64,000 nt of DNA, from positions 246,655 through 310,654 of IMG/VR virus record IMGVR_UViG_3300047472_000309. One strand, 5' to 3'. Under the pieces are notes generated by a model, which saw nothing but the letters and a program-made list of their open reading frames with translations, did not search any database and was not told where the DNA came from. The position numbers and the translations under genes are program-made. This DNA comes from a virus. Shown here piece after piece: positions 42,388 through 46,135 of the stretch; position 1 is the stretch's first letter; each line of letters begins with the position of its first letter.

Positions 42388-44040
42388 ATGGAAGGTCAAG
42401 AGAACAGCAATATTCATACGCCGTCAGTGACCACTGCGGCGGACGTACCGCCCGAACTGCGTACACCTACGACGGCAGTTGACCCGGTAGTCGATCCCGT
42501 GGTCGAACCGGCGTCGATCCAGCCGCCTGCACCGGACGCCTCGGAAGGCGTACACGAAGTGCTGGGTGGGCTGCCTGAAGATACGCTGGGCGATGCGCCG
42601 GTGGCATCGCAGGAAGACAGTGAACTGAAGGTCGAAGAAACCCCCAAGCGCTTGCCGCAAACCGACACGACGACCGTCAAGCAAGAGCAGGCCGTGTTCA
42701 TTCCGCTGGGTGTGGCGTTCGATTCGAACGGCATCACGCTGGCTGTGCCCGGTGCGCGTGAAGACGAGCTGCAAGAAGCGCTCGCCAAGATGCCCAACAC
42801 CGATCTGGGTGCGACGGCCGAAGGGCGCGAATGGATTGCTGTGGCCCAAGCAGGCTACCGGAATGCCACGCCGCGCAAGATGCTCACCGACATCGACGTG
42901 CGCGAAGGCGCGCTGTGGGAACAAGCGGTCAAGTCCGAGCGCGGTGGCATTCAGGCTTCGCGTCCCAAGCAAGCTGATACGGCAGGCGTCAGTCTGCGCG
43001 GTGAAGCCGGTGTGCTGGCCGTGCGTCAAGAAGTGGGTCTGGGTGGCATCATCCGCATTCCGCTGTGGCACTCCGGTTTTCACATTACGCTGAAGACACC
43101 GGGCGATGCGGCCATCCTGGAGCTGGAGCGTCGCATTACCGACGAGAAGGTACTGCTCGGTCGCATGACCAACGGCATGCTCTTTTCCAATACGTCGGTG
43201 TTCATTGCCGAGTACCTGGTCGAATTCGCCATCCGCCATCTGTACGACACGTCGCTGCGTAACAAGGAGAACATCTTCTCCAAGATCGTCTCGCACGACA
43301 TCCAGCATCTGGCGTGGGGCCTGGCCACCGCAATCTGGCCAACGGGCTTTCAGTACGTGCGCTCGGTGCTGGGTGAAACCGACGCGCAGAACAAGGTGGT
43401 GAAGGACAAGATCGCCATCGGCAAGCTGCAGTTCACCGATACGTCGCAACTGTCGAAGTGGCAGATCAACCACATGACCTCGGTGACGACCGGCTCGATG
43501 ACGGACGACTCGATCAAGAAGTACCGCGAGGAGTTCCTGAATCAGACACCGCGTAAGGTGCAAGTCACCGATAAGGTCGCGATCACGCTGAAGGTACCGA
43601 CGCTTGCCGAGCATATCGCCTCGGGCCAGAAGTGGGTCAACGGGATCGTCGTGATGACGGACCAGGTGTTTGGCATGGAGCAAGATGTCGATGAGCGTAA
43701 CCGCTTTATCTACGAACAGGGCCAAGCCACCTACATGCGTCAGTACGGGCACTGGATCGAATCGATCGAGCTCTCGAACGGCGCGATTGTGGAAGACCCG
43801 GAAACCATCGACCAGACGATCGACGCGCTCTCCGCTGACGACACGATTCGCAACAAGTTCGTGGATGCAGTGGTGAAGTACATCGAAGATACCACGGTCT
43901 CGATGATCGCCGTGCCGACGGTGGCCGCCAGCGAAGAACAGAAGTATCCGCGCTGGCCGCGGTTGTTGCCGATTGATGCGATGGCAACTTTTTTTACCCT
44001 ACTCGACCAGAAGGTCTCGCAGATCCGGGCGCGCAGCTAG
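42388..44040 (+). CDS. Probable virion/tail protein, 0-frame product, 550 aa
   Basis: It has a Pro/Val/Glu-rich N-terminus (about residues 15-100), then an alpha/beta body: AGVLAVRQEVGLGGIIRIPL near 215, TPGDAAILELERRITDEKVL, a membrane-neutral helical part and FNRFIYEQGQATYMRQYGHW-like segments. No enzymatic motif. It ends about 15 codons after a T-TTT-TTT slippery heptamer at 43989-43995; a -1 shift there would give a 705-residue product by reading into the next frame. The two-product arrangement (short and long) is typical of phage tail assembly chaperones, but this protein is much larger than those known to me. Confidence 0.6.
   Translation: MEGQENSNIHTPSVTTAADVPPELRTPTTAVDPVVDPVVEPASIQPPAPDASEGVHEVLGGLPEDTLGDAPVASQEDSELKVEETPKRLPQTDTTTVKQEQAVFIPLGVAFDSNGITLAVPGAREDELQEALAKMPNTDLGATAEGREWIAVAQAGYRNATPRKMLTDIDVREGALWEQAVKSERGGIQASRPKQADTAGVSLRGEAGVLAVRQEVGLGGIIRIPLWHSGFHITLKTPGDAAILELERRITDEKVLLGRMTNGMLFSNTSVFIAEYLVEFAIRHLYDTSLRNKENIFSKIVSHDIQHLAWGLATAIWPTGFQYVRSVLGETDAQNKVVKDKIAIGKLQFTDTSQLSKWQINHMTSVTTGSMTDDSIKKYREEFLNQTPRKVQVTDKVAITLKVPTLAEHIASGQKWVNGIVVMTDQVFGMEQDVDERNRFIYEQGQATYMRQYGHWIESIELSNGAIVEDPETIDQTIDALSADDTIRNKFVDAVVKYIEDTTVSMIAVPTVAASEEQKYPRWPRLLPIDAMATFFTLLDQKVSQIRARS
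43989..43995 (+). promoter_or_regulatory. Predicted -1 frameshift site T-TTT-TTT
   Basis: In the 0 frame the codons are GCA ACT TTT TTT ACC, so the seven T form a perfect X-XXY-YYZ slippery heptamer. A GACC-AGAA-GGTC stem (44005-44016) starts nine bases after it, a usual spacer for a stimulator though the stem is short. The -1 frame is open to 44502 with no stop. Confidence 0.6.
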
Positions 44041-44504
44041 TTGCAAAACACGTCGGTCACCCATTCTTTGGCGAGCATGTCGATGTAGTCGCGAAGCTAA
44101 GCGAACTCATTGCCACCGCGCCCAAGATGTGTGTGACCGACACGCGACAGCTGTTGCTGCACCGCTACGAGACGGACTTTGGGATTTACAATCACGACAT
44201 CTCTGATTTCGAGAAGAATCCCTTAGCCCTTATCCGGATGCATTCACGTGAGGATTCATACACGGGTAGTCAACTGGCCGAGCGCATCAGGCAATATCAC
44301 GATCGACACGTGTGGGAAGTGACGCACGATCCGCTCCATGTCTTTCTGAACTATCCGCGCCACATGGTGCTGGACATTCTGGAGCTTGCGGACAAGGCGT
44401 TGCGGGATAAGACCGCAGCACTGGTGAAGGAAGGCAAGGCCCTAGAGGATCGGGTTGCCGGGCTGGCATCTCAGAACGGCGGCATGATTCCACCACCGCA
44501 CTAA
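43995..44504 (+). CDS. -1 frame extension of the 550-aa gene, about 169 codons
   Basis: From the slippery site the -1 frame reads YPTRPEGLADPGAQLVAKHV, then HPFFGEHVDVVAKLSELIAT and on to the stop at 44502-44504. The first internal ATG at 44127 has no Shine-Dalgarno (the preceding bases are ACCGCGCCCAAG). Translation by frameshifting from the upstream gene is therefore more likely than independent initiation. The extension is mostly helical, with FEKNPLALIRMHSREDSYTG and FLNYPRHMVLDILELADKAL, and ends with a Pro-rich GGMIPPPH. An alternative is a sequencing error in the T run that splits one gene. Confidence 0.6.
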   Translation, partial: YPTRPEGLADPGAQLVAKHVGHPFFGEHVDVVAKLSELIATAPKMCVTDTRQLLLHRYETDFGIYNHDISDFEKNPLALIRMHSREDSYTGSQLAERIRQYHDRHVWEVTHDPLHVFLNYPRHMVLDILELADKALRDKTAALVKEGKALEDRVAGLASQNGGMIPPPH

Positions 44505-44516
44505 CCGGGGCCGTCA

Positions 44517-44969
44517 ATGATCATTTACGATGAACCGCGAAACATCTTTGAAGTAACGGAGCAAACGCTCGTTAATCCCGTTAACACGCAAGGTGTGATG
44601 GGCGCTGGCTTAGCATTGGCTTTTCGCAGTACCTTTCCGGGTCTGTTTGAAGAGTATCGCGAGGCGTGCCAGCAAGAGGTGTTTACGCGGCGAGGTTTCT
44701 TCGTGTATGACGTTGACGCTTCGCGCAAGGTGTTGTGTTTGCCGACTAAGCGAGAATGGCGTCATCCTTCCAGACTGGAATGGATTGAAGAAGGTCTTTG
44801 GTATCTATCGAGAGAGTATGAGAACTACGGGATTACCTCACTGGCGATTCCCGAGGTAGGCTGCGGGCGAGGTCAGTTAGGTTGGGCGGATGTGCGCCCA
44901 CTGATCTATCAGTACCTGGACCCTATCGCGTTACCAGTGGGGATTTGTTTAAGCCCCTTTGCAGTCTAA
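44517..44969 (+). CDS. Macrodomain protein, DarG-like ADP-ribosyl hydrolase, 150 aa
   Basis: A single macrodomain covers the protein. NPVNTQGVMGAGLALAF (residues 20-36) is the first ADP-ribose-binding loop with N20, N23 and the Gly-rich turn. LPTKREWRHPS (75-85) matches the PTKxxWRxxS segment of DarG, with K78 in the place of the lysine important for DarG. IPEVGCGRGQLGW (111-123) is the second binding loop. DarG removes ADP-ribose from DNA bases placed by the toxin DarT. A phage copy could undo ADP-ribosylation by host DarTG-type defence (inference). GGGG precedes the start. Confidence 0.85.
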   Translation: MIIYDEPRNIFEVTEQTLVNPVNTQGVMGAGLALAFRSTFPGLFEEYREACQQEVFTRRGFFVYDVDASRKVLCLPTKREWRHPSRLEWIEEGLWYLSREYENYGITSLAIPEVGCGRGQLGWADVRPLIYQYLDPIALPVGICLSPFAV

Positions 44970-44985
44970 CTGACTGGGAACGACG

Positions 44986-45444
44986 ATGATCATCTACGAA
45001 GCAGAGCGCGAACAGTTACGTGCAGAAGAGCAGGCCCTTCTCACGCCCATCAATATCGACGCCGTCGGAGGCGGGGGTTTGCCTGCGGCGTTTCGCTATG
45101 GCTTTCCCGGCCTCTTTAAAGCGTATTGCTGGGCCATGAAAAAGGGCATCTTCGAAAACGATAGCGTATTTGTCTACGATGTATCGGACGTACGCAAGAT
45201 CGTCTGCATGCCGATGAAGCAGCACCCTCGCTACAGTGCCGAAGAGAAGCTCGAGTATCTTGAAGAAAGCCTGATGGTAGTGGCCACCAGCTACCATCAA
45301 CATGGCATCTCGTCGATGGCGATCAACGAAATCGGTTACGGTGACGTGGATCTGCCCTGGGACAAGGTGAGGCCGATCATCCAGCGCTGTTTTGGACCGA
45401 TCGATTTACCGGTGGGGATTTATCGGGGAGTAGTACCTGTGTAA
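44986..45444 (+). CDS. Diverged second macrodomain-like protein, 152 aa
   Basis: It aligns without gaps to the preceding macrodomain over the first 78 residues (MIIY start, PIN at 21-23, GGGGL, PGLF, VFVYDV, PMK with K78 kept) and so is a tandem duplicate. The binding loops are altered: NTQGVMGAG became NIDAVGGGG, and VGCGRGQLGW became IGYGDVDLPW, losing Cys116 and Arg118. Ligand specificity or activity is probably changed; it may bind a related nucleotide or act as a partner. GGGAACGACG precedes the start. Confidence 0.75.
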   Translation: MIIYEAEREQLRAEEQALLTPINIDAVGGGGLPAAFRYGFPGLFKAYCWAMKKGIFENDSVFVYDVSDVRKIVCMPMKQHPRYSAEEKLEYLEESLMVVATSYHQHGISSMAINEIGYGDVDLPWDKVRPIIQRCFGPIDLPVGIYRGVVPV

Positions 45445-45468: not shown

Positions 45469-45678
45469 ATGCGATGGCTGATTAAGCAATACCAGCACTG
45501 GCGGTTCGCTCGGGGTGAGCGAGCTAAGCTGGCGCGTGTCGAAGAAGAGTTGCGTATCCGACGTGAGTTGGACTACCTCGAACAACAGCGCAACGCAACT
45601 CGTCCGGGGAAGATCTTGACGCTCGCCGAAAGTGAGCTGATGGGTCAAAGCATCACCGACCTCTCGCGTCGGTGCTAG
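45469..45678 (+). CDS. Small basic helical protein, 69 aa
   Basis: It begins MRWLIKQYQHWRFARGERAK and is one long charged helix with alternating Arg and Glu, followed by a short polar end. GGGAG precedes the start. It is the last gene of the plus operon, before a perfect-palindrome terminator. No family recognised; it could be an accessory to the macrodomains or unrelated. Confidence 0.5.
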   Translation: MRWLIKQYQHWRFARGERAKLARVEEELRIRRELDYLEQQRNATRPGKILTLAESELMGQSITDLSRRC

Positions 45679-45757: not shown

Positions 45758-46135
45758 TTAGTCACTCACGCCGCGGTAGAACAACTCATGCAGATAACCG
45801 TTGCTGATTTCGGTACCTGGTTCGTACCAGTTGATGCCCTGCTCGATACAGTACTCCTTGTCTTCCGGAGCCGGATCGACCGTGATCTTGTACGCGGGCA
45901 ACATCCCCTTACAACCGTCAAACATCACGAGCATCGAGAACGCCACCCCCTCACAGCGTTCCTTGACCGTACCGCCATTGGGTGTGGTGGCCCAGTAGTG
46001 TGCGTTGTCGCGACAAGCCTGCATGAACTCGTCGCGCACTTCGTTTTCTGTCCACGCTCGCGGTTCTAGGCGTCCTCCATCCAGTTCCTTAAGCGTGTGC
46101 AGATACGCACTGGCTTTCGTTTCTACTTCAGCCAC
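45758..46135 (-). CDS. Unknown conserved-looking protein, 125 aa
   Basis: Alpha/beta protein with MAEVETKASAYLHTLKELD at the N-terminus, VAFSMLVMFDGCKGMLPAYK in the middle and an acidic end EYCIEQGINWYEPGTEISNG then YLHELFYRG. Its style (GxNWxEPGxxI...YLHExFY) is familiar from small phage or bacterial hypotheticals, but no function is known to me. The start overlaps the upstream gene by 13 bases, so it is coupled to it. Confidence 0.6.
   Translation of the reverse strand: MAEVETKASAYLHTLKELDGGRLEPRAWTENEVRDEFMQACRDNAHYWATTPNGGTVKERCEGVAFSMLVMFDGCKGMLPAYKITVDPAPEDKEYCIEQGINWYEPGTEISNGYLHELFYRGVSD

Follow-up and report, generated by a model that had tools for sequence, protein, structure and literature searches.

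A lineage-specific tandem pair of intact and altered macrodomains in phages related to FLC9

The window analyzed here is a stretch of 64,000 nucleotides, positions 246655-310654 of the 310,654-base virus record IMGVR_UViG_3300047472_000309. It contains two adjoining genes, M1 and M2 (Table 1), both encoding Macro domain proteins; M1 retains the active site of the TARG1/DarG type and M2 has an altered one. The duplication is real and well supported, leaving one copy intact and the other altered; a role in defence is plausible. Only five phages were found to carry the pair, namely the window phage, Burkholderia phage FLC9 and three IMG/VR contigs. As the best overall explanation, to which we give about an even chance, M1 would act as an ADP-ribosyl hydrolase, and the role of M2 would be that of a binder or partner without hydrolytic activity. 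Macro domains are present in 56% of jumbo phages and have been proposed to counter ADP-ribose-based defences (PMC9503650; PMC7824862), and their function has hardly been tested. Both phage macrodomains and the counter-defence proposal are thus already known; what is new is an intact and an altered copy paired in one lineage, and no comparable phage pair is described in the literature that we found.

Fold and active-site residues of M1 and M2

M1 and M2 are 150 and 152 codons in length, respectively; both are located on the + strand, with 16 bases between them. The original prediction, made from the DNA letters, described two adjoining proteins of ~150 residues that align without gaps over their first 78 residues. 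Both open reading frames were confirmed, and 35 of these 78 residues are identical. Over the full length, the two proteins share 43% identity with one 2-residue gap; the alignment score is 298, and the best of 1000 shuffles scored 3. Both match phrog_335, and both exceed the gathering cut-off (22 bits) of the Pfam Macro family PF01661, M1 with 44.7 bits (E-value 1.5e-11) and M2 with 24.7 bits (E-value 2.4e-5). Among solved relatives, the DarG structures 5m31 and 5m3i rank above Thermosipho DarTG and human TARG1 for both copies; the E-values against 5m31 are 8.6e-27 for M1 and 1e-13 for M2. The AlphaFold2 models have a mean predicted local distance difference test score (pLDDT) of 95.3 for M1 and 84.9 for M2, and their Foldseek ranking agrees with the sequence ranking, with 5m31 on top for both M1 (E-value 1.1e-15, template modeling score 0.87) and M2 (E-value 4.6e-12). 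The predicted macro fold is therefore borne out for both copies, with DarG as the nearest solved relative of each, and M1 and M2 belong to the Macro domain superfamily by profile score as well as by fold. A NADAR-type hydrolase was rejected as their identity, the Pfam match being Macro and not NADAR.

We mapped the residues of both copies onto the positions of Thermus aquaticus (T. aquaticus) DarG for which structural or mutational data are available (PMC5179494). In DarG, Lys80 is essential, and K80A and N22A are the most damaging mutations (PMC5179494). M1 has Lys78 and Asn23 at these two positions; as predicted, it keeps the PTK lysine, and most of the ADP-ribose loops is retained as well (motifs NPVNTQGVMGAG, PTK and VGCGRGQLGW). 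In the alignment, the DarG-equivalent residues Asn8, Asn22, Thr79, Lys80, Trp83, Gly117, Gly119 and Gly121 are all retained in M1. By fold and residues, M1 is a protein of the TARG1/DarG class, for which hydrolysis is predicted.

The corresponding motifs of M2 are TPINIDAVGGGG, PMK and IGYGDVDLPW. M2 of the window phage retains the equivalents of Asn22, Lys80, Gly117 and Gly119, whereas those of Asn8, Thr79, Trp83 and Gly121 are lost. All five M2 copies have a rewritten loop 1 (NIDA-GGGGLP), share the changes Gly26 to Ala, Met28 to Gly and Ser85 to Glu, and lack the tryptophan at the base entrance; the threonine beside the lysine is lost in four of them. Lys78 is lysine in 166 of the 167 bacterial and phage relatives aligned at this position. 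The exception is FLC9 M2, which has arginine (PTRQH) and a 2-residue deletion at loop 2; the lysine conserved in the hydrolase class is thus Arg in FLC9 M2 and Lys in the other four. The claim that M2 changes both loops but keeps the lysine holds for the loops; for the lysine, it holds in the window phage and its three close relatives but fails in FLC9, which weakens the idea of M2 as a working, lysine-keeping variant.

M2 could still be a hydrolase with altered specificity, using the lysine in most phages while its rewritten loops accept another ADP-ribosylated target. Lys78, Asn23 and the loop-2 GxG of four of the five copies agree with this, as does the purifying selection on M2 described below; however, in FLC9 M2 the lysine is replaced and loop 2 is shortened, both parts are the least conserved in M2, and the base-entrance tryptophan and the lysine-adjacent threonine are gone in all and in four of the five copies, respectively. 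We regard this explanation as unlikely.

Origin, distribution and selection of the second copy

A tree built from 89 macrodomains places M1 and M2 as sister clades (support 99/95) within a jumbo-phage group that is separate from DarG; the stem of M2 (0.75) exceeds that of M1 (0.22) more than threefold. When 80 bacterial relatives were added in a quick tree, M1 and M2 were sisters again, with lower support (91), and the phage lineage remained separate from DarG. The sister position rules out that M2 was imported from elsewhere. One relative, G003 (locus L030; 253,740 bases, closed as circular by a 127-base terminal overlap), has the gene order g288, g190, g550, g125, macrodomain and then the g69 ortholog, without M2. 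Three other loci (L015, L016 and L017) have the same upstream order and one macrodomain in the stretch read. Since M1 and M2 are sisters and G003 has g125-M1-g69 without M2, M2 is most simply read as the product of a tandem duplication of M1 that took place once G003 had split off, while FLC9 and the window phage still shared an ancestor. The pair and its M2-less relative of the same gene order thus allow the family to be compared cleanly in its single-copy and duplicated states, at defined residues.

Among the relatives surveyed, which comprised viral contigs (up to 4 kb on each side) and phage records, no further case of two intact macrodomains side by side was found; 306 phage records contain an M1 relative, and a sample of them was read gene by gene. 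The prediction that a paired active/altered macrodomain is rare in phages agrees with this survey. In the whole-record search, the Pfam model alone overlooked FLC9 M2, so very diverged partners elsewhere could escape detection. An artefact or a chance pair was rejected, as the same pair exists in the cultured phage FLC9 and in three more contigs. In Salmonella phage SA002 (L014, 3001-4877), one Macro gene is followed by a gene whose beginning is a piece of a nearly identical macro copy; this arrangement looks like a partial tandem duplication, or an assembly error, of a Macro fusion gene.

To compare selection on the two copies, the ratio of nonsynonymous to synonymous substitution rates (dN/dS) was calculated between the window phage and two more distant IMG/VR relatives. 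It is ~0.03 for M1 and 0.12-0.15 for M2; the neighbouring genes range from 0.05 to 0.48. M1 is under strong purifying selection, and M2 is maintained under looser constraint; its ratio, well below 1, disfavours a pseudogene. The constraint on M2 is uneven. Between the window phage and FLC9, the M2 proteins are 59% identical, yet loop 1 (residues 18-38) is conserved at 19 of 21 positions, ranking first of 132 stretches of the same length, whereas the lysine loop (7/17) and loop 2 (6/15) are among the least conserved parts. In M1, the same three stretches are conserved at 19 of 21, 15 of 17 and 12 of 15 positions, respectively. As loop 1 is conserved while the lysine loop and loop 2 drift, the comparison suggests that M2 requires loop 1 and not the catalytic apparatus. 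A decaying or neutral M2 without function would fit its longer stem and its lost active-site residues; however, the reading frame is open in five phages over deep divergence, one loop is nearly invariant and dN/dS is low, so we consider a functionless M2 very improbable.

Phage context and possible roles of the pair

In the phage collection searched, near DNA similarity was found only to FLC9. The record encodes a homolog of chimallin, the nuclear shell protein of phiKZ (E-value 5.6e-34; L174, G000:C1:3174-4895, - strand), and homologs are likewise present in every other relative tested, among them FLC9 and Xanthomonas phage LucasX. Because of this gene, the phage is very probably a nucleus-forming jumbo phage. 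One separate NADAR-domain gene is located outside the window (L087, G000:C1:199747-200184, - strand, E-value 3.9e-41). NADAR is also present in FLC9, G003, G005, G002 and G007; it was not found in phiKZ, LucasX, pEa_SNUABM_37 or G001. As the NADAR gene accompanies M1, one phage carries hydrolase candidates for both guanine-linked (NADAR) and thymine-linked (M1) ADP-ribose. Co-occurrence of NADAR and macrodomains in phages has already been remarked in general terms (PMC9503650).

Several known arrangements do not apply to M1 and M2. Neither is the DarG antitoxin of a DarTG system by definition, because no DarT gene is adjacent and the C-terminal part that binds DarT is missing from both proteins, which stop after the macro fold. 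A phage-borne toxin-antitoxin system was rejected as well, since no match to DarT (PF14487) was found anywhere in the 310-kb record. Appr-1''-p processing or RNA repair was rejected because the partner KptA/Tpt1 (PF01885) had no match in the record, a contig that may be incomplete. M1 and M2 are not macro effectors of the Thoeris ThsA type either, being too short to contain a transmembrane part in addition to the macro fold.

In the favoured explanation, M1 would act as a stand-alone TARG1/DarG-type hydrolase that strips ADP-ribose during infection. The best single candidate for its substrate is thymine-linked ADP-ribose placed on phage DNA by DarT-like host toxins; other ADP-ribosylated targets are the alternatives. 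TARG1/DarG-type domains also strip ADP-ribose from uracil in RNA (PMC13036486), so the substrate of M1 cannot be fixed from sequence. After the tandem duplication of the macrodomain gene in the FLC9-like lineage, M2 would have been released from catalysis, with its lysine loop and loop 2 drifting, but selection would have retained it, its first pocket loop rewritten and under strong constraint. M2 would then most likely serve as a non-hydrolytic binder, either as a sponge for an ADP-ribose-type ligand, as a sensor of such a ligand, or as partner of M1 or another protein. In phiKZ, import carries the homolog gp104 into the phage nucleus (PMC11087766); by analogy, such import would put an M1-type enzyme at the phage DNA. 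Given this homolog, the pair has a bearing on how nucleus-forming phages handle ADP-ribose-based defence. Knock-down of gp104 lowered chimallin levels and hardly changed titres, and its authors suggested that gp104 is of benefit under competition or when the host carries other defences (PMC12571901). As a tentative extension, the two copies might form a two-part counter-defence, in which the catalytic copy cleans phage nucleic acid and the GGGG-loop copy captures a different ADP-ribose-type defence signal or tethers its catalytic partner to the target.

Several observations weigh against the favoured explanation. M1 has Ala at the positions of DarG Lys29 and Gln34, and K29E impaired DarG (PMC5179494). 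Neither DarT nor KptA, which would define a substrate, was found in the genome record. The M2 model is less confident, its pLDDT falling from the low mean to 69 in the loop-1 block, and loop 1 may be conserved because of folding and not because of ligand binding. The arginine of FLC9 is known from one record; with Lys78, Asn23 and the two loop-2 glycines present in the other four copies, weak or altered catalysis by M2 is conceivable.

A specific anti-DarT role of M1 is plausible from its relatedness. The nearest solved relatives are those of DarG, whose macrodomain is by itself sufficient to rescue DarT toxicity (PMC5179494); 72 of the 80 nearest cellular relatives are DarG-sized (272-419 aa), and several plasmid relatives adjoin DUF4433, the DarT family. 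DarTG targets phage DNA, unrelated proteins serve as anti-DarT factors in other phages (PMC11481870), and the same phage has NADAR, a hydrolase of the guanine ADP-ribose type. However, the phage lineage stands apart from DarG in both trees, domains of the class also act on ADP-ribosylated RNA and further targets, and M1 is a stand-alone protein outside DarTG operons in a genome without DarT. We hold as possible, but doubtful, this narrowed form of the main idea of the original prediction, in which M1 is directed specifically against DarT and is supported by M2, which might, for example, bind ADP-ribosylated DNA or form a heterodimer with M1 that widens its range.

Somewhat less probable still, the targets may be small ADP-ribose derivatives that act as defence signals or toxins, such as ADP-ribose 1''-phosphate (ADPr-1''P), cyclic ADP-ribose (cADPR) or base-exchange dinucleotides like His-ADPR; M1 would degrade them and M2 would sequester them. 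The rebuilt loop 1 and base entrance of M2 suit a different ligand. A Thoeris-type signal, which the original prediction gave as an example of what M2 might bind, is neither favoured nor disfavoured by the data. However, ThsA macrodomains are structurally nearest to the MacroD-like and macroH2A-like classes and not to DarG, and in most relatives the gene is single-copy and looks catalytic.

The two copies could also be divided by location, M1 inside the phage nucleus and M2 outside, or the reverse, the duplication having split two sites of action. In phiKZ gp104, residues 77-95 confer nuclear import (PMC11087766); this segment is near the family consensus in M1 and is altered, with a 2-residue insertion, in M2, and the genome has the chimallin homolog. 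However, import recognition is phage-specific, the M1-M2 identity within the segment is about the overall value, and the segment is also the catalytic lysine loop, which is another sufficient reason for its change. The case for a division by location is therefore weak, and we think it improbable.

Locus and comparison with known systems

The 125-aa gene g125 stops 12 bases before M1, and the 69-aa gene g69 begins 24 bases past M2. Scans for promoters and terminators gave no signal clearly exceeding shuffles. Further downstream, a 125-aa gene on the - strand (window 45758-46135) diverges unusually fast among close relatives (synonymous divergence dS 1.7 against L007; 0.2-0.5 for its neighbours); it may be a recombined segment.

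Table 1. Features of the macrodomain locus (window numbering)
Feature	Position	Strand	Evidence
M1, 150-aa stand-alone macrodomain with intact TARG1/DarG-type active site	44517..44969	+	Pfam, DarG match, AlphaFold2, Foldseek
M2, 152-aa diverged macrodomain, tandem duplicate of M1 (simplest reading)	44986..45444	+	Pfam, DarG match, AlphaFold2, Foldseek, tree
M1 codon of Lys78, equivalent of T. aquaticus DarG catalytic Lys80	44748..44750	+	Alignment; role of Lys80, PMC5179494
M2 codon of Lys78 (Arg in the FLC9 ortholog)	45217..45219	+	Alignment
M1 loop 1 region, residues 18-38, LVNPVNTQGVMGAGLALAFRS	44568..44630	+	
M2 loop 1 region, residues 18-38, LLTPINIDAVGGGGLPAAFRY; most conserved M2 stretch against FLC9 (19/21)	45037..45099	+	
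M1 loop 2, GCGRGQL	44859..44879	+	
M2 loop 2, GYGDVDL, degenerate; shortened in FLC9	45334..45354	+	
M1 residues 77-95, aligned with the phiKZ gp104 nuclear-import segment (77-95)	44745..44801	+	Alignment; PMC11087766
M2 residues 77-97, same segment, changed; contains the sole M1/M2 indel (+2)	45214..45276	+	Alignment
g550, syntenic upstream gene, phrog_4585	42388..44040	+	
g125, syntenic upstream gene, phrog_12109	44127..44504	+	
g69, downstream gene; directly adjoins the lone macrodomain in M2-less G003	45469..45678	+	

Among phage proteins, phiKZ gp104 and PhiPA3 gp108 are homologous stand-alone, nucleus-imported macrodomains of nucleus-forming phages, with 36% identity to M1. Different from the M1/M2 arrangement, phiKZ has a single Macro match in the whole record, and no altered partner was seen in the Pfam search. 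The phage Macro proteins of phrog_335, including fusions in Erwinia and Salmonella jumbo phages, share family and jumbo-phage setting with M1 and M2; however, they contain a single Macro domain, some with a C-terminal fusion (SLOG-like by eye), and no altered tandem copy. In the Erwinia jumbo phages (L012, 3001-4290; L086, 3799-4677), the macrodomain is fused to or near a SLOG/DprA-like domain, a call made by eye and from the record annotation 'DNA processing protein A'. Anti-DarT factors named in the literature consulted are AdfA of RB69, T4 and T6 and AdfB of ICP1; AdfB is a 77-aa protein that binds DarT directly (PMC11481870), differing in size from M1 and M2.

Outside phages, betacoronaviruses also have several tandem macrodomains, two of them extremely divergent (PMC9503650), but they are unrelated viruses and carry these domains in one polyprotein. 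The Macro domain of Thoeris ThsA is a nucleotide receptor and a model for a non-catalytic M2 (PMC11204291), although ThsA is a host defence effector with a transmembrane part and of another structural class. TARG1 (C6orf130/OARD1) is of the same macrodomain class as M1 and M2, and the three Drosophila Targ paralogues include active and apparently inactive members, as proposed for the phage pair, Targ2 being inactive on ADP-ribosylated uracil (PMC13036486); these are animal proteins and not adjoining phage genes. The DarG macrodomain (T. aquaticus 5M31/5M3E, Mycobacterium tuberculosis 5M3I) is the top sequence and fold match of both copies. Like DarG, M1 has the catalytic lysine, the pocket asparagine and most ADP-ribose contacts; different from DarG, the phage proteins are stand-alone, lack the C-terminal part and the DarT partner and form a separate clade, and M2 is without most of the contacts.
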